Shown in pieces: positions 2,431 to 15,229 of a stretch of 64,000 nucleotides of DNA. Source of the stretch: Tachypleus tridentatus (Eukaryota > Arthropoda > Merostomata > Xiphosura > Limulidae); NCBI RefSeq assembly GCF_004210375.1, contig NC_134831.1, positions 47,092,035-47,156,034 on the forward strand, given 5' to 3'. Within the stretch, counting starts at the first letter, position 1; every line of letters starts with the position of its first letter. A program made the position numbers and the translations under genes. The notes beneath the pieces are model-generated. The model did no database searches. It saw nothing but the letters and a program-made list of their open reading frames with translations, and was not told the origin of the DNA.

Positions 2431-4021
2431 TCAAAACTATTAGTGTGATTGGGAGGTCAGTCATTACTCTGTTTAGGAAATTTATTCTCACGAATGCTTT
2501 TACACAAGTTTGCCACATTTTAAAAGTTATGTTTATGTTTTCAACTACACTTTGAAAATTAAATAAAAGGTTGAGCAATTGCTAAATTTTTATTATAAAA
2601 AACGATAACGTTTCGAGTTCGGGACTTTCGTTGGATCATACAGTTTTCAACAAAGGCGCATGCTTAGAATTCTAAGAACTACGTGTATAATATTTAGAAT
2701 GTCGGCGATTGTTCGATCCTTTATTTAATATATTTTTGGTCGACTTTAACTATATTTATCTTTCAATTCTTCTTTCGTAATAGTTACGTTTTGAGTTGAA
2801 TTTTCGAGCTTTTTACGGAAGTTGTAAATTGTAAGAAATTTTCGCAAGTTCAGTACAGATCTATATATTGTTGTTATTGCTATTTAAATATAAAAATACA
2901 ACTATTGTCTAACTTCTAACAACAATTATCCATCTGATATTGTAGGCACGTCACGTTACTAAGTGTAAAGCCTCAGAAACAAGAAAAATTAACTAATCGA
3001 TCTTAAATACAAACGGTGTATTAAATGGTTTATAGAGTAATCTCTTATGAAACTGGTTTCGCTTTTCAGAAGAGCTTCTAACAAGTTTTTTATTAAGAGC
3101 AATCTGTGTATGATGGTTATCATATAAATTGTTGTTATTATTTGTTATAATATTTGCAACATTAACGAGTTTGGGTAAGTCATGAGTTTTATTTTTAAAA
3201 TTAGCTTGAGTAGTTCATGTAAACAGTATTTGATTGTGTAATTAAAGCAACAAAGATTATGTTGTCTCTCTTTACTGAATTGAATCCGTAATTTTATAGT
3301 AATATTCTTACATCTGTTGTGGAATAAATAATGAATGAGGCATACCTCTTGTATTAATTTGCATAATTCGCAATCATTCGTTTACTGTATACTTACACTA
3401 AGGTAATTGCAGCTTTTGGTCCTACAGATGTTTGTAAAGATGAGTATTTATATTGTCGGTACGTATACGAAAATAATAAATTATTCATCTTGCTACGAAC
3501 AGATTATAAATCTGACATCCTTGAATCTGCTTTCTTTTGTCAGTTATCCTGAGTATGAGAGCTGCAACCATAGATGCCCCGTAGAAGATACGTTTTTACA
3601 ATACTTAAGAAACCTTACAACCTTTTATGGGGTATTTATGGTATTGGTATGTCTTAGATCATGTCTTCTACTACTTCAGGAATTAAAGGTGAGATTTTAT
3701 CTCAAACCGTCTAATATAGGATATTTACTGACAATCCTTTAGCCAATTAAACAAAACTTTGATTTGAACACGATTAGATGATATATTTATTGGCGATTAT
3801 CGCATAAATTAAATGTCAGTGTTACCTGTTTAATTTTTTTTATAGTGATTAAATTAATTTATGCTTGTCAAGCATTTTTTCTCTAGAAGTATACAGTAAT
3901 GCGAGTGAAATATATAGGTGTGTTGGACAAAGTTTCTAACTTGGTGGTGATAAATTTGGCAATAAATGAACAGTACGCACTTCGCTTATTTTAAAATAGT
4001 ATATGTTTAAAATAAGTTACA
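2431..4021. other. AT-rich spacer, no recognised gene
   Basis: A motif at about 2605-2650 (ACGTTTCGAGTTCGGGACTT) resembles terminal-repeat motifs of Penelope-like elements but is isolated. An open stretch at 3544-3646 starts after TTTTGTCAG and ends before GTATGT; its product is not recognised. Nothing else could be assigned. Confidence 0.4.
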
Positions 4022-4032
4022 TTTATTTACAG

Positions 4033-4310
4033 TTTGTTTGTTTTGGAATTTCGCACAAAGCTACTTGAGGGCTATCTGTGCTAGCCGTCCCTAATTTAGC
4101 AGTGTAAGACTAGAGGGAAGGCAGCTAGTCATCACCACCCACCGCCAACTCTTGGGCCACTCTTTTACCAACGAATAGTGGGATTGACCGTCACATTATA
4201 ACGCCCCCCACGGCTGGGAGGGCGAGCATGTTTGGCGCGACTCGGGCGCGAACCCGCGACCCTCAGATTACGAAGTGCACGCCTTAACGCGCTAGGCCAT
4301 GCCGGGCCCT
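4033..4310 (-). repeat. tRNA-derived SINE (family 1), near full length
   Basis: On the minus strand it opens with a tRNA-like head (GGCCCGGCATGGCC, then an imperfect GGGTTCGCGCCC-type B box). A conserved body follows, and it ends with GCACAGATAGCC, GTAGCTTTGTGCG and a (CAAA)n-like tail. The 11-base direct repeat TTTATTTACAG (4022-4032 and 4311-4321) is the target duplication of a retroposition event. Further copies lie at 10000, 13997, 35532, 43174 and 63814, with fragments elsewhere. It is non-coding and dependent on a partner LINE. Confidence 0.9.
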
Positions 4311-4321
4311 TTTATTTACAG

Positions 4322-4811
4322 AAAGAACTTACATTATGTATGTCATAGTTGTATTTTAAATACTATATTATAGAGTTCTCTCTTTCTTGTCAATAAACTG
4401 CTTTAGAATCCACTTGAAAAACTGAACTATCTCTCTTTACTTTTAATTCAAACAATGACAGTGTATAACTCTCTTATTTCTTTTACCTTTATCGTTCCTT
4501 TTATCATAACAGTATCCTCACTTTTTGGCGGCTCGGCATGGCCAGGTGGATAAGCTACTCAGTGAGGACATGTTTTGTATGAGCTCCGTGTTTACACTTC
4601 TGAAGTTTTTAGAATTTAGTTTCCTTTCCTTTGAGGCTTGTTTCAAATTCTATTCTTATAGTTATTATTTTAAGTTAGATAAGCTACATCATTATTTGCT
4701 GTTAAAATTAATATTAAGATTTGTTTTTTGCGCGGACCATTATGTCTTCCCTTATAGGGGTGGAAAGTGACATAATGAGGGGTGATGAATTGTGTGACAT
4801 GAAAATCGTGT
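4322..4811. other. spacer with SINE head scrap, leading into a LINE 5' region
   Basis: A short tRNA-like SINE head fragment (GGCTCGGCATGGCCAGGTGG) lies near 4527-4550. Sequence from about 4730 onward is probably the 5' untranslated region of the LINE whose first reading frame begins at 4812; no exact 5' end or target duplication was found. Confidence 0.4.
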
Positions 4812-5739
4812 ATGAAGCGTTCTGTTTTTTTGTGTCTAGATAATATCGACTACGGGGATATATTTCGGCAAATATGTGCAGAATATGGTGATGCATCAAT
4901 ATCGGCAATCATTCCAAGATCTGGAGGATTAGAAGTTACCTTTGTTTTGCAGAGTGATGCTAATTCAGCTATGGATGATGGTGTTATTAACGGTCAGGTT
5001 TTTGAAGTACTTGGTGTCGCTAACAAAGTTGTAACGGTTTCATTCTTTGAAGTACAAGAATACATAACGGACAATCATATTAAGGGCAAATTAATCGAAC
5101 TAGGTTGCACTCTAAAGGGTCCGATTGTGTGGAAACGTATTAATGGTATCTATACAGGAATAAGACATGTACGCGTTTAGTTACCAACAGGTGTATCATC
5201 TATACGCCTTATAGATCCAGTCGGAAGGGGTGCATTCTATCAAATAAAACACAATCATCAGATAAAAGTCTGTAATAGATGTAAGGCTGATGATCATTTT
5301 TACAGCAGCTGTCCTAAACGTAAATGTCGGAAAAGTGGAGAGATCGGATATTTTGCGCGAGATTGCATAAACGCTAATAATCAAATTACTAATATCGAAA
5401 AAGAAAAGCCTTTTGAATTCACCGACACCCCCGTTGCGTCCGAAATAGAAGTGGAATCGCCTGTTTTAATTACTCGAGTTCCTAACGTATAATCATTTGT
5501 TGAGAACACGAGACAAGAAGAACTGTTGGGAGAATGTTACAGAATCAGAAATTATAATTTCTTCCAAAAATAGAAAAGAAGATAATGTTATGGGCTACGC
5601 GAATGCAACACGAAAAAGGCTATCGATTGATGAAAATAAACCACAAGAAAATACAAAAGTAAAACAAGTTCGTCTCAAGAAGAATAGCAGGAAACATAAT
5701 CAGAAAGATATTACTAACAGAACGAAGTTCTCCAGTTAA
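4812..5739 (+). pseudogene. LINE ORF1 (CCHC nucleic-acid-binding protein), degenerate
   Basis: This is the ORF1-type RNA-binding protein of an L1/Tx1-like non-LTR retrotransposon. The frame opens at 4812, is broken by a TAG at 5178-5180, and continues in the same frame to about 5490. A zinc knuckle at about 5268-5310 reads CNRCKADDHFYSSC, fitting C-x2-C-x4-H-x4-C. It is followed by a second, damaged knuckle (CRKSGEIGYFARDC, with the second Cys and the His replaced). A basic, lysine-rich stretch in another frame (5497-5739) looks like the C-terminal tail after a frameshift. The endonuclease of the same element follows directly, as expected for ORF1-ORF2 order. Confidence 0.7.
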
Positions 5740-6302
5740 AATTATACACTCTTAATGTTTACGGGTTATCTAATATGTTTAAGCTAGAAAAATTTTAACT
5801 TTACTTAAAAAGAGAAAATATGTTATTACTTGCTTACAGGAAACATTTTGGTATGATGCTTTTGTTGATAAAGTTAAATTACAGAGGGAGGGGATGTTAT
5901 CACTTACGATTCTGAATTACATAGAAAAGATGTTGCGATTTTTTATTGGCAGGGGTCCAGATATTAGTGATATTAATTGTCATATTAGTGGAGTAGGTCG
6001 TAAGATAGTTTTATCCTTTACTTACAGTGCAAAACATTTTACAGTTGTTAATATTTACGCACCATATTCTTCTGCAGAACGCTGTTCATTTTTCAATAAC
6101 TTAAAATTTGATATACCTTCTGATTTTTTTATTATAATGGGTGACTTCAATTGTGTTTTAAACGAAAGGTTAGGTGAATACCCATTTCATCACATTAATG
6201 ACAAACCCCGAACAATATTACATGAAGTTTTAAATTCATTTGATATAGTAGATCTATACCGATATAGTTTTCCAACTAACCGCGAATTCACTTGGTCTAG
6301 AA
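5740..6302 (+). pseudogene. LINE ORF2 5' part: AP-type endonuclease, cut off by a hAT insertion
   Basis: This is the N-terminal part of the apurinic-like endonuclease that nicks target DNA for LINE integration. It starts near an I-x-TLNVYGL motif (about 5745). The best preserved part, 5894-6302, carries VVNIYAPY, the catalytic IIMGDFNCVL and the later REFTWSR motif. The protein stops abruptly after TWSR because a hAT transposon begins at 6303. The missing endonuclease end and the reverse transcriptase are found on the opposite strand from 11598 downwards. The target sequence and reading frame match across the gap (see findings), so both halves come from one LINE copy. Several frameshifts make it non-functional. 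Confidence 0.85.
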
Positions 6303-8076
6303 CAGTGGTTCTTAATCTGGGTTCAATAGAACCCAAGGGGTTCGGTGAGTCAGTCTCAGGAGTTCGGCGGAGGTTAAAAGACACACACTGTGCGTGTGTC
6401 TGTTCTGTTCACCCGACTCGTATGATTCGTGACGTCATGCTCCACTTGGCCATCATTGGCTGCGGCTGATCACGTCATATGACTTGGCCTTAATATCTGT
6501 GCTTCAAGGATCTTCGTGCACATAGCAGTAGACTTGTGACTGTAGTAATCGTGCGTCATTTGTGATTTTTTTTCATAATCTTTCAATCCCTTCATACTAA
6601 CTATGTCGAGCAAAAACATACAATATGGATTCACGTGTATAACGGAACATGATGGGAGTCAGCGTCCTTAATGCATGATTTGCAATGCCAAGTTGAGCAA
6701 TTCTAGTCTAGCGCCGGCAAAACTAAGAGAACACTCCCTAAAGCTGCATGGAGATAAGAAATACAAGAACACAACGCTTGGTGAATTCAAGATAAAGAGA
6801 GCCAGATTCGATGAAAAGGCTACTTTGCCTGTTCTCGGCTTTGTACCCATCGACAAACCGATCCTCACAGCATCGTCGAAGTTGCGTACTTGATCGCAAA
6901 GTAGGGCAAACCATACACCATTGGTGAAGCACTCCCAAAACCAGCTGCGTTGAAGATAGCGAATATCATACTGGGAAAAGCTGCTGAAAATAAGTTATCC
7001 CAAATTCCTCTTTCAAATGACACCATCAGCAGCAGAATAGATGATATGAGAAATTACATCTTGGCTCAAGTAGTTGCAGATCTAATTTCAAGCCCAGCAA
7101 AATTCAGCCTTCAACTCGACGAGACCAATCTAAGCCAGCTTGTTGTATTCGTACGCGATGTGAAGAACGACGAGATAAAAGAAGATTTTTTTATTTTATA
7201 AGCTTCTTACAACAACAACTAAGGGAGCTAACGTGCATAAACTTGTGGATAACTTCTTCAGAGACAACGATCTTTCGTGGGATATGGTTTCTGCAGTTTG
7301 TTCGGACGGAGCTTCAGTCATGCTGCGATGAAACTATAGTTTTGGTGCACTGGTGAAAGCTGATGCACCACACATCATTGTAACACATTGTGTTCTGCAC
7401 AAGCATGCATTGACAACAAAACCTTGCCTTCAAAACTGGCAGAAGTATTAACAATTGTAGTGGAATGTGTGAACGTTGTGCAAAATAGTGCCCTGAAGCA
7501 CTGCATCTTCAAAAAGCTGTGTAATGAAATGGGCTCTGAATTCGAGGTACTTCTGTACCATTTGAACGTTCGGTGGTTATCCTGGGGAAGGATGCTAAAT
7601 CGTGTTTTTGCCATGCGTGTGGAATTAGCCCTGTTTTTGCGAGAGCACCAACATTGTCATGCAGATTGCTTCAAAAATCTGAGTTCATTCTCATTTTGGC
7701 GTACATGGCCAATGTCTTCAATGCTCTCAATCAACAGATGCAGGGTGGTAGAGTCAACATCATCAAAGCGGAAGAAAACCTGAAGGCTTTTCAAAAAGCT
7801 ACTGTTATGGAAACGACAAACAGAGAATGATAACTTTGCAAACTTCTTCTGCTGGACGATTGTGTAAGTAAGATCGAAGATGTGTCTGAAATCAGAGACA
7901 TTTCTGTGCCCGGGGAACTGAAGCAAACAATTGCCATGCACTTAGATGAATGCACAAAGTCTCTCGATGGATACTTACCCACCAGAGAGTCATTTCCAGC
8001 ATGGGTGAGACAGCCGTTCACGTTTAGTGTTGCAACAGCAGATATCAATGATGAATACCTCGACGAAATCATTGAT
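6303..8076 (+). pseudogene. hAT (Charlie-type, BED finger) transposon, 5' part, plus orientation
   Basis: The element begins with CAGTGGTTCTTAATCTGGG directly after the 8 bp target site GTCTAGAA (6295-6302). A transposase frame opens at 6603 with a BED-like finger (CMICNAKL...LREHSLKLHG) but has a TAA at 6669-6671 and later frameshifts. Recognisable segments are 6950-7200 (DDMRNYILAQVVADLISS, then a QLDE residue group), 7388-7783 and 7882-8079. They resemble the ZBED5/SCAND3-like transposase group. Homology to its inverted partner stops at about 8076, after the YLDEII motif. The C-terminal dimerisation region and the 3' terminal repeat are missing here and occur on the minus strand at 11599-12110. 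Confidence 0.85.
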
Positions 8077-9862
8077 TAAGTATGTTAACTTAATCAGTTT
8101 TTTAACAGGAAGATAATTTAAGTGGATAACATTTTCACCATCTGAATCACACATCTCAAAAATAAATTGTGTCGTACCTGTAACTGGTGGAATTTCTCTT
8201 TCAACCAAGTCTTTCCATTCTTCTGGAATAGCATCATATAACTTTTGTAATACTGTCTGACTTGAACAGGTATCACACTTTCAGATACATCCTGACATAA
8301 CTCGATAAGTTTTAAGGGAAGTTAAGGAGGGACAAATTCGTAAGTGAAGTCCCTTAAGCGAATTAGTCCAGCGCTAATAAAATGTATATTTTAGAATGTA
8401 CTTAATCCCATAGTGAGAACAAAACATTGAGAAACAGTGGTTGCCGGAAAACAATCTGTGTTATTTGGGAAGATTCGACGACTCCTAACGAGCGTTTTAC
8501 AAAACTCTAATACTTCATAATAAAATGTAGGAACATTCATCATTTGTCGTGGGAGAATGTCACAATACCACACATCGTGCCCAAGATTTAAATCACCATA
8601 CTTGTCTTAAAGATGGGCAAAGAGGATAAACATAGATGGAAATGTGTTATAATCTGAAGAACCATTTTAACCAATACGCCGCCTTTTCCCTCTTGACGTC
8701 TGTTAAATTGAGACCATTTTTGTCTTTCGAAGATACCAAAATTTCGTTACGCACTTTATGTACTCCACCATCCCATATAAACCGTAAAATATCATGTTTA
8801 ATTGTCAGATAAATCCTGTTTTCCATCGGCAAGACCATCAGATAATACCAAATAGTACTGGAAGCTAACGAGTTCACAACCATAACTTTGACTTTCAATG
8901 ACAGATTCCGATATCTCCAAGCAACCAATATGCGTGTTATTCTCTGACACAATACTTCCCAATTCAGATCATGTATTTCTGCCGCATTTGTATGGAACTG
9001 AATACCCAACATTTTTAAAGGGCTATTTCCAATAGCCAATTTATCCATTTTTAATTCCTGGTTATCAGCTAATGAGCCCAACCACGTACCTTTACTTTTT
9101 TTCCCAGTATATTTTGCTACCAGATGCCCGTTCATAATCATTACACGTTTCTTGTATGGCAATAAGAGAGTCAGCATCAGACACTATTATCTGAGTATCA
9201 TCAGCATGCATGTATACCAGTGAAGTTGAACAGATATTATTGTATTTGAGAGAAATACCTCGAATTTGTGGGTTATGTACCAAGGCTTCTCTGAAAGGTT
9301 CTGCACAGAGAACATACATTTATGCAGATAAAGGGCACCCCTGTCTTATCCCTCTAGAAATAGTAAATTCCTTTGTCAGATATCCATTGCATTTAACGAG
9401 ACCAGTGATGTTGGTAAAATATAATCTTATCCAGTTGCAATAATTGGTACCGAATCCCATTCTAGAAAGAACTGCAAACATGTATGAATGCTTGCAGTTT
9501 TCTAATCTAGTATTGTCGCCTCTCTCTCAGAGAGCAAAACTATTAACCCTTTTCTCATAATTGGTAGCAGCTGGTTTTGAGAGTACATCTGATTTAACTA
9601 CTTAACATAATTGTCCACAATAAGAGGCATAAAAATCTGGAAAAATTCTGTGGTGAAGCCATCGAGACCGGGAGATTTACCACTCTTCATTCCTTTCAAT
9701 GCATTTAATACTTCCTCCGATGAAATGAGAGCTTTGCAAAGTTTTCGATTGACGGAAGACAACTTTTTAGTTAATTTAAACACGAATGAAAACATAAAGT
9801 CCGGTAATAATAATATACACAGTTTAAAATATATGTTATAGCTGTACAAGGTACATAATTTT
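8077..9862 (-). pseudogene. LINE ORF2 3' part: reverse transcriptase and C-terminal region, minus strand
   Basis: Reading leftwards from 9862, the conserved entry segment GMKSGKSPGLDGFTTEFF lies at about 9650-9720. It is followed by RQGCPLS with LYVLCAEPF (about 9300-9345), the catalytic HADD (normally YADD) at about 9190-9220, and a connection region at 8647-9177 (WRYRNLSLKVKVMVVNSL). The downstream segment to about 8090 (for example FYYEVLEFCKTLV at 8490-8540) is the C-terminal region typical of Tx1/L1-like ORF2. The frame is broken many times. The 5' continuation on this strand resumes at 11598-11015 beyond a hAT MITE. Its 3' limit coincides with the junction to the plus-strand hAT at about 8076. 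Confidence 0.8.
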
Positions 9863-9870
9863 CATCATAC

Positions 9871-11006
9871 CAGTGGCGGCGCCAGAATATTTTCGTTGGG
9901 GGGGGGGGGGGGGGGGGAAGAGATAAACTGTGCAGGGTCTTCCAAAAATGCCATCAATATGAAGTATAGATGGTAAATTAAAATAATGTAACTACTACAC
10001 TGGGCTTGGCATGGCCAAGCGCGTAAGGCGTGCGACTTGTAATCGGAGGGTCGCGGGTTCGCATCCCGGTCGCGCTAAACATACTCATCCTCCCAGCCGT
10101 GGGGGTGTTATAATGTTACTGTCAATCCCACTACTCGTTGGTAAAAGAGTAGTCCAAGAGTTGGCGGTGGGTGGTGATGACTAGCTGCCTTCCCTCTAGT
10201 CTTACACTGCTAAATTAGGGACGGCTCGGTGCAGTGGGCTAACAACCTACTCACTTAAATACCTGTTGAAAAATTCGCAAGCGATTGTGGCCCTATGTTC
10301 CTTGGTGGAACCTAATGGTGATAACTAACTATAACTAACTAACTACTACATTACATTAAATTAGGCACTTTTAAATAGTCCAATGAAAATTTCAAAATTC
10401 ATTCTAAAATTGTTTAGAAATATTATTTGGTCAGTCAACATGTAAGGTTATTATCTAATCATAAGTATAACATTAACTGGATTATAAGTCACAATTTTAA
10501 GTGTATGCCACAATCATCAGTACAATTTTGGATGGCTGATACACAGTGCAAAATGATCTCACAGAGGACACAACACCGGCTAAATACTTTATAGTTTTGA
10601 CCTATATACCATACACTGATACATGCATACTATGTTTTACTTTTCAATAAAAGATAAATGAAATTAATGGGCAAATACCTGTGAAACCTTTGGTTTATCA
10701 AGTAAAATCCCTGATGATCTGTTGTAACTTGAAATCAATGTGGTTGTCCAATTTTCGTCAAACTGAAAGCAGAATGGCATTACACAAGGAGCAGCAATAC
10801 AGCGCATGAGTTTCAGTGCATTCAGTACGTTGCTATGGGACGCATGACACATACTTCCGTTTTGATGAAGACGCTGAGTTCTACAGATCTATGTCTCTTT
10901 GATGTTAATTGTTAAGCAACAATGACGATTGTGTTTTCCATATTTTATGAATATATGTAGGTAACAATATTGGGGGGAGCTCAAGCCCCCCTTGGTGCCG
11001 CCACTG
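9871..11006 (+). mobile_element. non-autonomous hAT transposon (MITE), copy 2, containing a SINE
   Basis: The ends are CAGTGGCGGCGCCAGAATAT and its near complement GGTGCCGCCACTG. An exact 8 bp target duplication, CATCATAC, lies at 9863-9870 and 11007-11014. It is the inverted-orientation sibling of the element at 1433-2269. Its length exceeds that copy because a 341 bp SINE composite sits at 10000-10340 inside it. A long G run follows the left end. It was inserted into the minus-strand LINE between endonuclease/linker and reverse transcriptase coding, so it is younger than that LINE. No coding capacity. Confidence 0.9.
10000..10340 (+). repeat. SINE family 1 copy with a foreign 3' tail
   Basis: The tRNA-like head (GGCATGGCCAAGCGCGTAAG, B box GGTTCGCATCCC) and the normal SINE body run to ACGGCT at about 10226. 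The sequence then switches from the usual GCACAGATAGCC tail to an unrelated tail (CAGTGGGCTAACAACCTACT, CCCTATGTTCCTTGGTGG) ending in a TAACTAAC-type repeat. The whole composite is bounded by the 10-base target duplication AACTACTACA (9990-9999 and 10341-10350), so it moved as one unit. Confidence 0.8.
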
Positions 11007-11014
11007 CATCATAC

Positions 11015-11598
11015 AATTTCTGAATGTATTTTTACTCTATTATTTTCTGCAGAAAAAACTACTGTGTACTCCTTTCTCCCTCTTCAAACCATTTAACCGG
11101 TGCCCGAACTAGGGCTCCTTCTATACTGGCAAGCTGTATATCGTTTATTTGTTCCTCGAAGTAATAAGCCTACTTAGGATCACGCTGAGCATCTTTCGAC
11201 AAGTAATTGTTCTCCCTACGTAACTTTGACTTTAGTCATGCAAGATCATACTTACGGTTTTGAGCTTCTAGTTTTGCATACTTATGGGTAACAAATATCA
11301 CTAAATAACTGTTCATACAAAGTAACTAAGTCATTTTTATAAGTTTATCTGCATTTACCTCTTTCAATCAGTAATTCAATATTTCTAGTATGGTTCACAT
11401 GATCTACTAACTTATTAATAAACAACCACACACCAGGCCCTCGCAGAGCAGGAGAAAAACTAACTGTACATTCAACTGTATTATGATCACTGTAAGGAAA
11501 TGGAACATGACTAATTTTCGTAAAACGGGATACTTTTTTGAGACACCAGTATTTTATCTATATGAGACTGATACAAATTACCACAGATTATTCTAGAC
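11015..11598 (-). pseudogene. LINE ORF2 middle part: end of endonuclease and linker, minus strand
   Basis: Reading leftwards from 11598, the first codons after the GTCTAGAA site continue the endonuclease (SHIDKILVSQK). After a frameshift comes PYSDHNTVECTVSF, containing the conserved SDH motif at the end of AP-type endonucleases. At about 11095-11160 the linker to the reverse transcriptase reads KWFEEGERST, characteristic of L1/Tx1 ORF2. It joins, across the MITE at 9871-11006, to the reverse transcriptase at 9862-8077. Confidence 0.8.
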
Positions 11599-13220
11599 TA
11601 GTGGTTCTTAACTTTGTTGGAGGTACTGAACTCCAGAAGTTTCGTACTTGCATTCACTGAACCCTTTGTAATTGGAAAAATAAAATATGATTTTTTCAAA
11701 TTCAAAACATAAGGAGATATTCTACTAGTGCACAAAATGAACCATTCATCAGTTACACACAATATCGCTGTGTTCAAAGAACAAAACATGAATTTCAGAC
11801 AAAAAAACATAACTCAATGAATATTTACTGCAAATCAATGTGACTTTTGCTGTTGCCTTTCAGAGACAAGTTCAGAAATGTGTGGCTTCACCTTAACAAG
11901 TGCCACTCTCATATCATTTTCGCTACAAAGTATGTTCCTTTTCTTCGTTTTTGTGTCTACCATCCTCGAAAAGGATTGCTCGCAAAGATACGTTGTAACA
12001 AACGGTATGAGCATTTCAAGGGCTTTCTTAGCAATAAGCAAGTACGCTACGATTTGGTGACACCAAAACGTTGAGAGCATTGTTGTTCTTTAGCTGGCTC
12101 TGCTAAAGTTCAATGATTTCGTCGAGGTATTCATCATTGACATCTGCTGTCACAACACTAAACGTGAACGGCTGTCTCACCCATGCTGGAAATGGCTCTC
12201 TGGTGGGTAAGTATTCGTAGAGAGATTTTGCGCGTTCATCTAAGTGCATGTCAATTGTTTGCTTCAGTTCTCCGGGTACAGAAATGTCTCCGATTTCAGA
12301 TACATCTTCGATCTTACTTGCACAGTCGTCCAGCAGGGGAAAGTTTGCGAAGCTATCATTTTCTGTTCGTCGTTTCCATAACAGTAGCTTTTTTTGAAAA
12401 GCCTTCAGGTTTTCTTCCGCTTCGATGATGTTGACTCTACCGCCCTGCATCTGTTGATTGAGTGATTGAGAGCATTGAAGATATCGGCCCTTTATGCCAA
12501 ATTGAGAATGAACTCAGATTTTTGGAAGCAATCTGCATGACAATGTTGGTGCTCTCGCAAAAACAGGGCTAATTCCACACGCATGGCAAAAACACGATTC
12601 AGCACCCTTCTCCAGAATAACCACCGAACGTTAGAATGGTACAGAAGTACCTCGAATTCAGAGCCCATTTCATTACACAGCTCTTTGAAGATGCAGTGCT
12701 TCAGGGCACTATTTTGCACAACGTTCACACATTCCACTACAATTTTTAATACTTCTGCCAGTTTTGAAGGCAAGGTTTTGTTGCCAACACATGCCTGTGC
12801 AGAACACAATGTGTTACAATGATGTGTGGTGCATCAGCTTTCACCAGTGCACCAAAATCAGTTTCATCCCAGCATGACTGGAGCTCCGTCCGAACAAACT
12901 GCAGAAACCATATCCCACGAAAGATCGTTGTCTCTGAAGAAGTCATCCACAAGTTTATTCACGTTAGCTCCCTTAGTTGTTGTTGTAAGAAGCTTATAAA
13001 ATAAAATAAAATCTTTTTTTATCTCGTCATTCTTCACATAGCACACGAATAGAACAAGCTGGCTTAGATTGGAAACGTCGGTGGTCTCGAGTTGAAGGCT
13101 GAATTTTGCTGGGCTTGAAATCAGATCAGCAACTACTTGAGCCAAGGTGTCATTGCTCATGTCATCTATTCTGCTGCTGATGGTGTCATTTAAAAGCCTC
13201 ATTGGGATAAATGCTTTGTC
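11599..13220 (-). pseudogene. hAT (Charlie-type) transposon, 3' part, minus orientation
   Basis: On the minus strand it starts inside the transposase (LLNDTISSRIDDMSNDTLA at about 13190) and runs through the same segments as 6985-8076. It then continues into the part missing from the plus copy, 12080-11835, with AKKALEMLIPF and CEQSFSRMVDTKTKKRN, the hAT C-terminal dimerisation motif. The 3' terminal repeat (complement of TAGTGGTTCTTAACTTTG) ends at 11599 beside TTCTAGAC (11591-11598), the reverse complement of the site flanking the plus copy. Frameshifts are present. The 5' terminal repeat and BED finger are absent. Confidence 0.85.
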
Positions 13221-13260
13221 CACTGAGGGGATCGAACTTCTGATTTCAGTGCTACAAATT
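13221..13260 (-). repeat. SINE family 2 fragment
   Basis: The complement contains a B-box-like GTTCGATCCCC preceded by GTAGCACTGAAATCAGAA, matching the head of the 40044 SINE copy. It marks the right edge of the rearranged LINE/hAT block. Confidence 0.45.
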
Positions 13261-13723
13261 GAAAAACGTACATCTATTTAATCAGGAGTCGTTTAATTAG
13301 AAACACCTTAAGAAATAACCAGTCTATTTTCTTGTGATATCAATATTGTTGGATAACTATTAATATCTGCTTTATCTCTTACACCTATGCAGCACAAATG
13401 ATATATTTTATAATGAATTATGTTTCAAGTTAAATTGTGTAACCCTCAGGTGGTTCGTAACTTTAATGGTCTAATTTAGAGCATTCTATACAGGTTTTTA
13501 TTTTTCATAATCTCTGATTATATAATTCAAAAGCTGCTCTTTGTTTCCATCACTGGTATCAGAGTATTGAATTCACAGTTACTCTCTAAATGTACATATA
13601 TCATTGAGTTAGAATTATTACTTCATAGTTGTAATATTAATGACTACATTTCTTTACCAGTGTGCAAAACCTATTGAAAAAGAGGGAGTAAATAACGTTT
13701 CACTTCTTTGAGTTGATTGAAAG

Positions 13724-13854
13724 GACATCGGAAACAATAACAATTCATTGTTCAAGACAGATATAACAAATGAGGAAATTATGCGAAAGTTAAGAACTAT
13801 TGTTTCTGAAGAAAATCCTAAAAAAATATACCAAGATAAAAAAAATTGTCATGG
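13724..13854 (+). pseudogene. PAK-like kinase exon: linker before the kinase domain
   Basis: This exon encodes NEEIMRKLRTIVS then NPKKIYQDKK, matching the segment just before the kinase domain of group I p21-activated kinases, whose family pattern is EEI-x-KLR-x-IVS and DPKKKY. It ends CATGG before a consensus GTAAGT donor (13855-13860). That leaves a phase 2 split codon completed by the next exon to give HGASGTVY. The 5' border is uncertain: an AG at 13722-13723 keeps the frame open, and an alternative lies at 13759-13760. The expected KIGQG of the glycine loop reads KNCHG, so the first glycine is lost. Confidence 0.75.
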
Positions 13855-13996
13855 GTAAGTTTAAAAATAACATGTACCTTAGCAGCTTTTTTCATTTAAA
13901 CTTAAAGAAAAGTATGGAAAACTGAATTGGGTAATTACATTTATTAATATTTGAATTCAAGTTTGAGGTTCTGTATTTGAGTTCGACAGAAGTCTG

Positions 13997-14260
13997 TTTG
14001 TTTGTTTGTTTTTGGAATTTCGCACAAAGCTACTCGAGGGCTATCTGTGCTAGCCGTCCCTAATTTAGCAATGTAAGACTAGAGGGAAGGCAGCTGGTCA
14101 TCACCACCCACCGCCAACTCTTGGGCTACTCTTTTACCAACGAATAGTGGGATTGACCGTCACATTATACACCCTCACGGCTGGGAGGGCGAGCATGTTT
14201 AGCGACCCGCGACCCTCGGATTACGAGTCGCACGCCTTACGCGCTTGGCCATGCCAGGCC
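13997..14260 (-). repeat. tRNA-derived SINE (family 1) in a PAK intron
   Basis: On the minus strand it has the complete head, body and GCACAGATAGCC...GTAGCTTTGTGCG tail with a (CAAA)n end. The target duplication CGACA[G/A]AAGTCTG occurs at 13984-13996 and 14261-14273, with one mismatch. It lies in the first intron between recognised PAK exons. Confidence 0.9.
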
Positions 14261-14273
14261 CGACAAAAGTCTG

Positions 14274-15229
14274 AATTTAAAGTATGAACGCTAACAATTT
14301 TGTGGAAGGTTGCAGAATGGTATTGCAACTTAAAGTTAAATTTGTACTCGGTAATAAAATATTCAAATTAAAACTTTATTTTTGGAACATAGTACTAATC
14401 TATAATTAATTAGTTGGTATTATTTTGCCTTAACCATATCACTTCATTAATCAGTTATTTATTTATTTTTTTAACTATATGTTAAAGTATGACATTTTTT
14501 TTAAATTCTTGTTGTAGGTTCATTTTTTGAAAACTTTTCAGTTGAAGGAATATATAACGTTAAGCTAATTATTTTGTATATTTCACATAACAAATTCCTT
14601 CTATCTCCTTCAAATTCCTTTACACAGCAGACCACAAAATTATGTATCATTATTCTGCTAAAATTCAAAGCAAGGGTTTATTAAATATCATTATACAGGC
14701 TACTCAAGTACGGCAACTTCATAATACTTCAAACTTTGATAATATTTCACTTCCTTCTTTTGTGTTTGGATAAAAAAATCACTTGGGATGTAAACATGTT
14801 AGTATGCATAAGAAATGTGTAATAGTCCAAACTGAAAGCTACCAGTTGATTTATTATTTTATTATTATAATGATTTAATTATTACAAACTGTAAATGTAT
14901 ACCTATCTTTTTTCATTGCTTTGACTCTTTTCATAATATTATTACACTATATGTGATACAAAGGATAGTTGTATAGGCTGATTAACTCATTGGTATTGAA
15001 AATATGATTGACTTTAAAATATACAAATGTTCAACATTAGAAATATCTTGCCCTTTTCTGATATATGAAGGAAATAAATTTAGTTAAAAGTGAGCAGTGT
15101 GATTCATTTTATCCAAATACAGCTAATACATTTTTCATCAACAAAACTTTGCATTACAAAAATAACTAGTCCCAGCAAAAATAGTTGCATTGTTCAAAAA
15201 GTGTTATAAATTATTCGATATTTCGATGT
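14274..15229. other. intronic AT-rich sequence
   Basis: No gene, RNA or clear repeat was identified. The position between two PAK-like exons makes it intronic sequence by inference. Confidence 0.4.

Follow-up and report, generated by a model that had tools for sequence, protein, structure and literature searches.

A nested LINE–hAT locus of Tachypleus tridentatus, best read as a decayed transposon that an inversion-type event tore apart long ago

When a hAT transposon lies as two inverted halves within a long interspersed nuclear element (LINE), does it record two insertions, or a single one that was later torn apart? The question is raised by a locus of Tachypleus tridentatus that lies within a 64-kb stretch of contig C7 (47092035–47156034; hereafter ‘the window’), which we compared with LINE and hAT relatives at other loci of the same 2.17-Gb genome, designated here by L numbers. 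Coagulin (PF02035), which is not known outside horseshoe crabs, is matched at 19 places in this genome and at none in 14 control genomes. Our best reading, which we consider probable, is that one hAT inserted at GTCTAGAA of an L1-like LINE and that an inversion-type rearrangement followed; the whole is best read as one transposon within another, now decayed, which such an event broke long ago, leaving an inverted duplication and, at the far end, a loss.

On the plus strand, the LINE runs from 4559 to 6302, the hAT 5′ end follows at 6303 and the hAT is cut at 8075; on the minus strand, the hAT, cut at about 13196, reaches its 3′ end at 11599, and the LINE is found again from 11598 to 8080. The two LINE parts, at 4559–6302 and 11598–8080, are complementary: they do not overlap, and one continues the other. 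As claimed by a sequence-only reading of this DNA, both hAT ends lie beside the same 8 bases, with GTCTAGAA at 6295–6302 and 11591–11598 exactly abutting an end in each case. These are the only 2 occurrences of GTCTAGAA or its complement on both strands of the window; because about two are expected by chance for any 8-mer in 64 kb on both strands (our own arithmetic), it is the position of GTCTAGAA, not its count, that is informative. The terminal inverted repeats, CAGTGGTTCTTAA at 6303 and TAGTGGTTCTTAA at 11599, face one another, and similar ends are seen in L006–L008. A window-wide scan for hAT end motifs returned the 6303 and 11599 ends plus one 13-mer with 2 mismatches at 13790; since the latter motif does not extend, each hAT end is present once, one 5′ and one 3′, just as the sequence-only reading held. 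A second full hAT end, which that reading had put forward as evidence against itself, was looked for in the whole window and not found. The parts of the locus are as follows:

4559–6302, plus strand: LINE 5′ part through the endonuclease, up to the hAT target site (by similarity to relatives).
6295–6302, plus strand: GTCTAGAA target-site copy adjoining the hAT 5′ end (a single copy in uninterrupted LINE loci).
6303–8075, plus strand: hAT 5′ part (hA), internally cut (aligned to hAT loci L006, L007 and L008).
7010–8075, plus strand: arm 1 of the inverted duplication (by alignment).
8076–8079, no strand assigned: junction 1, TTAA, which fits neither the hAT nor the LINE relative (aligned to L007 and L011).
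8080–11598, minus strand: LINE 3′ part (reverse transcriptase side), without the last ~750 bp and ~235 bp near 9490–9495.
9871–11006, no strand assigned: separate non-autonomous hAT-like element within the LINE, with the target-site duplication (TSD) CATCATAC at 9863–9870 and 11007–11014.
11591–11598, minus strand: GTCTAGAA target-site copy adjoining the hAT 3′ end.
11599–13196, minus strand: hAT 3′ part (hB), internally cut (aligned to hAT loci).
12110–13196, minus strand: arm 2 of the inverted duplication (by alignment).
13193–14000, plus strand: junction 2 and the dispersed repeat after it; AAAG at 13193–13196 matches both sides.

Two limits shift relative to the sequence-only reading. The LINE stands, with its start at 4559, where similarity begins, instead of 4812; in eight of the nine relatives that reach this end (L041–L049) the similarity starts at 4558–4561, and in L044 at 4584. 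The inverted arms stand too, with limits of about 7010–8075 and 13196–12110 in place of 6985–8076 and 13220–12111, the sequence from 13193 fitting another repeat; the bases just before 13210 were dropped as hAT, as the downstream repeat fits them better. A feature absent from that reading is the loss of the last ~750 bp from the LINE 3′ part: LINE relatives extend ~750 bp past the point at which the window copy is cut, and when this stretch, taken from three relatives, was used to query the window at an E value of 1e-5, only SINE-like (short interspersed nuclear element-like) repeats matched.

We queried the genome with each LINE:hAT junction, a junction-spanning match being one that should stand at the top of the ranked matches. 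The 5′ junction is spanned by two of the 40 listed matches (best 40 of 753 candidates scored) and the 3′ junction by two of 46 (best 40 of 1032 candidates scored); in both cases the spanning matches, among those listed, are the window itself and a near-identical copy at C7:36.28–36.29 Mb. Matches in L028 and L031 whose LINE similarity runs on into the hAT end are chance similarity, both loci being uninterrupted, and so is an L031 match running past the 3′ junction, where the L031 LINE is intact. Given that the junctions are unique among the matches listed, that the LINE parts do not overlap and that the hAT ends occur once each, a single insertion is favoured; the earlier claim of one hAT in one LINE is supported in that no other such junction stands among the matches listed.

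How selective is the target? Across the target point the LINE is uninterrupted in 14 of the 15 loci displayed (L051–L068 were left out of this comparison); four of these 14 empty sites have the exact GTCTAGAA, the remaining ones being changed in those 8 bases. Exact 8-bp duplications flank the hAT copies L007 and L090, and imperfect ones L004, L006, L008 and L018/L041; TA is central on at least one side of the target site in all six of these other hAT copies (both read by eye). The central TA agrees with the nnnTAnnn consensus given for TcBuster in the relevant part of PMC3499496, and the sites are not far from the nTnnnnAn consensus of Hermes as stated in part of PMC10368747. At C10:130.92 Mb (L018, L041), the same hAT family is found in another LINE copy, at a different LINE site with the target ATCTATAT/ATCTATAG.

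Aligning the arms, as the sequence-only reading had suggested, confirms that they are real: they share 1,078 aligned bases at 93.9% identity by local alignment (93.1% in multiple alignment), and about 1.07 kb of hAT is present as inverted arms, at both ends of the reversed piece. A recent duplication is ruled out by the 93% identity; should both arms derive from a single segment, their divergence suggests that the duplication is old. Arm 2 is arm 1’s top match after the near-identical copy, narrowly, with 1551 bits as compared to 1547 for the next; this first search gave 1,132 candidate hAT copies. The kinship of the arms depends on whether L090 is considered. This hAT copy at C7:47.064 Mb, about 33 kb upstream of hA, has its own TSD, TTTTAGAC, and is an independent insertion. 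When L090 is left aside, 13 private columns unite the arms, as compared to 0–5 for the other 20 pairs (seven complete rows), and the arms are sisters with support of 100/98 (tree of eight rows). The copy L094, a row of this tree that matched the arms over only part of its length (488 aligned columns), was left out of the private-column counts and the segment-wise trees.

A number of observations weigh against a single insertion. At 93.1% identity to one another, the arms are hardly closer than they are to four unlinked copies chosen from arm 1’s best matches (92.3–92.8% for arm 1 and 91.5–92.8% for arm 2). Once L090 is added, arm 2 pairs with it (96/96; 93/93 in a set of eight rows from which L094 is absent), and the private columns number 11 for arm 2 and L090, 3 for the two arms and 4 for arm 1 and the unlinked L008; arm 1 and L090 share 4. 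In the 7561–8031 segment, arm 2 again groups with L090 (100/99) and the arm pair is rejected (p-AU, approximately unbiased test, 0.006), and for 7651–8005 neither arm is among the other’s 40 listed matches. The fifteenth LINE locus, L024, carries a different hAT-like end, CACACCCCTG, at the exact GTCTAGAA (L024:1–280); this end was called hAT-like by eye from the one side of the insertion seen, the second end of the element not being identified within the 376 bases examined. The GTCTAGAA target is thus reused by two elements. Finally, no ancestral LINE–hAT–LINE arrangement was observed, and the original order is read from this genome alone. The shared 8 bp and the likeness of the arms, on which the sequence-only reading had leaned, are therefore both present and both weaker as arguments than it supposed, given the reuse in L024 and an identity of 93.1% as compared to 91.5–92.8%.

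Could two hATs of the same family have inserted independently at the same hot 8-mer of two oppositely oriented LINE copies, which were then truncated and joined? We regard this as improbable. The 8-mer does resemble the target sites of the six other hAT copies, a different hAT-like end does occupy the same site in L024, the arms diverge almost like unlinked copies, and there is no excess of private columns between them once L090 is included. The same history, however, demands that one family enter the same site twice, both times in the same orientation within the LINE, yet no other such junction is found among the matches listed; the LINE parts are complementary without overlap, and without L090 the private columns of the arms exceed those of every other pair. 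Ectopic recombination between two complete hATs is ruled out, each hAT end being present once.

Returning to a single insertion, we examined how L090 relates to the two arms along their overlap. In 7010–7256, arm 1 groups with L090 (84/85), all three stand together (97/93) and the arm pair is not rejected (p-AU 0.195); in 7257–7560 the arms group together, weakly (76/80), with L090 among the ordinary copies (eight rows). Over the whole overlap with L090 included, the arm pair is not rejected (p-AU 0.078). The searches agree with these trees: one with 7325–7500 places arm 2 right behind L006 and a close copy of L006, with L090 further down, and the 7186–7255 query returns, after the window and its copy, L090 (99%), arm 2 and its copy (96%) and others at no more than 91% (best 40 of 373 candidates). 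Of the private substitutions, judged against 6 to 26 other rows with letters per position, 8 are common to both arms and L090, 3 to the arms alone, 3 to arm 1 and L090 (7045–7157) and 11 to arm 2 and L090, ten of the latter within 7581–7990. Outside the overlap, L090 and hB share 1 private column in the 3′ flank (other pairs 0–3), and their identity, 98.7% up to about 8030, is 86.8% beyond it; in the 5′ flank, L090 and hA share 5, the highest of 15 pairs (others 0–3), 2 of which lie after 6600. The picture outside the overlap is mixed, L090 being ordinary on its 3′ flank only.

We tentatively explain this pattern by gene conversion, with both arms having donated to L090: it would be arm-1-like at ~7045–7255, ordinary at 7349–7475 and arm-2-like at ~7581–8031. 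With such patches in L090, the arms would therefore remain sisters. Conversion between the arms themselves is a possible alternative account. A local family, in which L090 and both arms stem from short-range transposition, would leave the shared private bases silent on one insertion versus two. That L090 is an independent insertion ~33 kb away with its own TSD, that 8 private substitutions are common to L090 and both arms and that L090 and hA top the 15 pairs with 5 private columns in the 5′ flank all fit such a family, but we consider it rather unlikely: in the 3′ flank L090 and hB share just 1 private column within a range of 0–3, their identity is much lower past about 8030 (86.8%) than before it (98.7%), and the arm closest to L090 switches along the overlap, as expected from conversion patches.

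How, then, would one insertion have come to lie in two inverted halves? Even in the absence of a related genome, the original order is fixed to the base by the target duplication and by the directions in which the two nested elements read; from the structure as it stands we infer the following order of events. A single hAT would have inserted at GTCTAGAA in the L1-like LINE (8-bp duplication, locus-specific junctions). A later break inside the hAT would have been misrepaired, such that the piece from the hAT interior to its 3′ end, together with the LINE 3′ part, was rejoined in reverse, with the ~1.07-kb hAT segment ending up at either end of it. Whatever preceded the repeat at 13193 would have been lost along with the LINE’s last ~750 bp, and the arms would have decayed independently, perhaps giving gene-conversion patches to L090.

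The breakpoints themselves carry some marks of the repair. The inverted duplication is present at both ends of the reversed segment (7010–8075 and 13196–12110); junction 1 has four odd bases and junction 2 a 4-base match (one copy each of hAT, L007, and LINE, L011, aligned), although base-level details of the junctions are uncertain at 7–10% divergence. The LINE continuation was not found past the far breakpoint, where arm 2 passes into another dispersed repeat at 13193–13196; since this repeat and not the rest of the LINE follows arm 2, at least one loss occurred during or after the inversion. Neither the source of this repeat nor the original far breakpoint could be located.

A classic staggered-break inversion is a sub-case of the single insertion: breaks flanking the 1.07 kb, fill-in, a flip and a separate deletion at the far breakpoint. 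The order L–d–R(inverted)–d(inverted) matches the model set out in part of PMC7584159 and in a figure legend of PMC12368964. Because the remaining LINE sequence was found neither after arm 2 nor elsewhere in the window, an extra deletion is required, and the discussion in PMC7584159 holds that repair alone can account for inverted duplications at an inversion; we consider this sub-case possible but doubtful. Of the sequence-only proposal of a staggered-break inversion, then, the inverted 3′ half and the duplication at the break stand, and the clean staggered-break form is not supported as it was put. Staggered breaks plus deletion and template-switching repair both fit the junction marks and cannot be separated here; we lean slightly towards template switching (backward copying and joining at a short match) over staggered breaks with fill-in, since the duplication, the deletion and the short match would then all follow from one event.

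Other routes to a reversed LINE piece were considered and rejected. After twin priming, the 5′ part of a LINE stands inverted in front of its 3′ part, which keeps the sense orientation, and the tail lies at the target. This is ruled out for the LINE here, where the tail side joins the hAT interior and the tail itself is gone. Insertion of a LINE by its 3′ end into the hAT at 8080, where the LINE matches stop, is ruled out because relatives continue, and alternative hAT transposition because both hAT ends remain at the target.

Might the assembly have produced the structure? The near-identical copy at C7:36.28–36.29 Mb, on the opposite strand, covers window positions 4000–14707 at 97–99% identity with the same junctions, and may be the other, misplaced haplotype or else a genuine duplication. 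Because this second copy repeats the structure at such identity, an assembly slip is unlikely. That an inverted copy lies about 11 Mb off on the same contig and could be a misplaced haplotype leaves some room for an error joining two nested-transposon loci, but as both copies have the same junctions at 1–3% difference, we give such an error very little credence. No second copy of L090 was found among the matches listed for the 7186–7255 query (best 40 of 373 candidates). LINE loci are also paired on one contig with near-equal match scores elsewhere (C7:36.28–36.29/47.10, C8:129.1/130.7, C9:64.4/71.0 and C8:85.1/91.3 Mb), and such pairs could be misplaced haplotypes or segmental duplications.

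As to what the elements are, the LINE is L1-like, as judged from the reverse transcriptase sequence of a better-kept relative, L016. RVT_1 is matched there with an E value of 1.3e-20, as compared to 0.069 only in the window copy, and among solved structures this L016 piece best matches the reverse transcriptase 8c8j and entries for L1 ORF2 (E about 1e-26), with weaker matches to R2. In the window copy, Exo_endo_phos is matched at 5783–6301 (E 3.9e-5; 24.0 bits, just below the 24.5 cut-off), and in the relative L042 above the cut-off (36.2 bits); a zinc knuckle match at 5181–5489 is below the cut-off, and ~235 bp near 9490 are absent. The other element is assigned to hAT because of its ends and 8-bp target duplications, its transposase domains lying below the curated cut-offs: Dimer_Tnp_hAT at 11835–12086 has an E value of 0.015 and DUF4371, in L093, one of 0.016; no hAT domain was detected in the remaining tested pieces of L004 and L093. 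The separate 9871–11006 element (~1.1 kb) has the ends CAGTGGCGGC and was called hAT-like by eye from its ends and the length of its TSD, CATCATAC; its empty site is seen in the LINE relative L011, and a SINE-like repeat lies within it, near 10002–10226. This abundant repeat has three copies (4032–4309, 10002–10226 and 13996–14261) and is present in many relatives’ loci too.

Elsewhere in the window, a tRNA scan returned no tRNA. The right half contains four pairs of direct duplications (23989–26111/45182–47304, 26112–31350/52113–57355, 34377–34898/57348–57871 and 37251–43359/57870–64000), 0.5–6.1 kb long, 98–99% identical and kept in order, which constitute a recent local segmental duplication.

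The locus belongs to a known kind of rearrangement. As in Drosophila inversions such as D. subobscura O7 (described in parts of PMC7584159 and PMC5080602), a segment is reversed and a breakpoint piece is inverted at its ends; unlike in those cases as described there, the reversed piece here measures only ~5 kb and consists entirely of transposon sequence, and at least ~750 bp have gone from the far breakpoint. In the relevant passage of PMC5080602, staggered breaks are recognised by the inverted duplications at the breakpoints. The corresponding part of PMC7584159 states that two staggered-break models are indistinguishable from the inverted-duplication pattern and that its own case is explicable by repair alone, template-switching repair being proposed for O7 as the alternative. 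For Atlantic cod inversions, attributed to paired transposons and ectopic recombination, sections of PMC12368964 list staggered breaks with end joining as an inversion source, expect end joining to give non-repetitive inverted duplications and see in those annotated as transposons a pointer to ectopic recombination. As in cod, hAT-related sequence is inverted at the breakpoints here, and taken at face value that rule would assign the present locus to ectopic recombination; unlike there, the hAT parts are internally cut and their ends single, and two complete copies recombining would be expected to look different. Ac/Ds alternative transposition, the subject of PMC3470690 and PMC8225341, likewise links hAT elements with inversions. 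Such reactions involve the transposon termini, whereas here the ends remain at the target and the breaks are internal. A literature search for similar cases returned related work on Drosophila, cod, maize and rice; no description of this locus was among the work listed, which is not proof of absence.

The elements are decayed, and we propose no present function for them. The locus preserves, as a clearly marked fossil, what an inversion-type repair event left behind. It indicates that inverted transposon arms need not mean two insertions, that sharing an 8-bp target proves little, such sites being reused, and that a linked copy can alter the apparent kinship of the arms.

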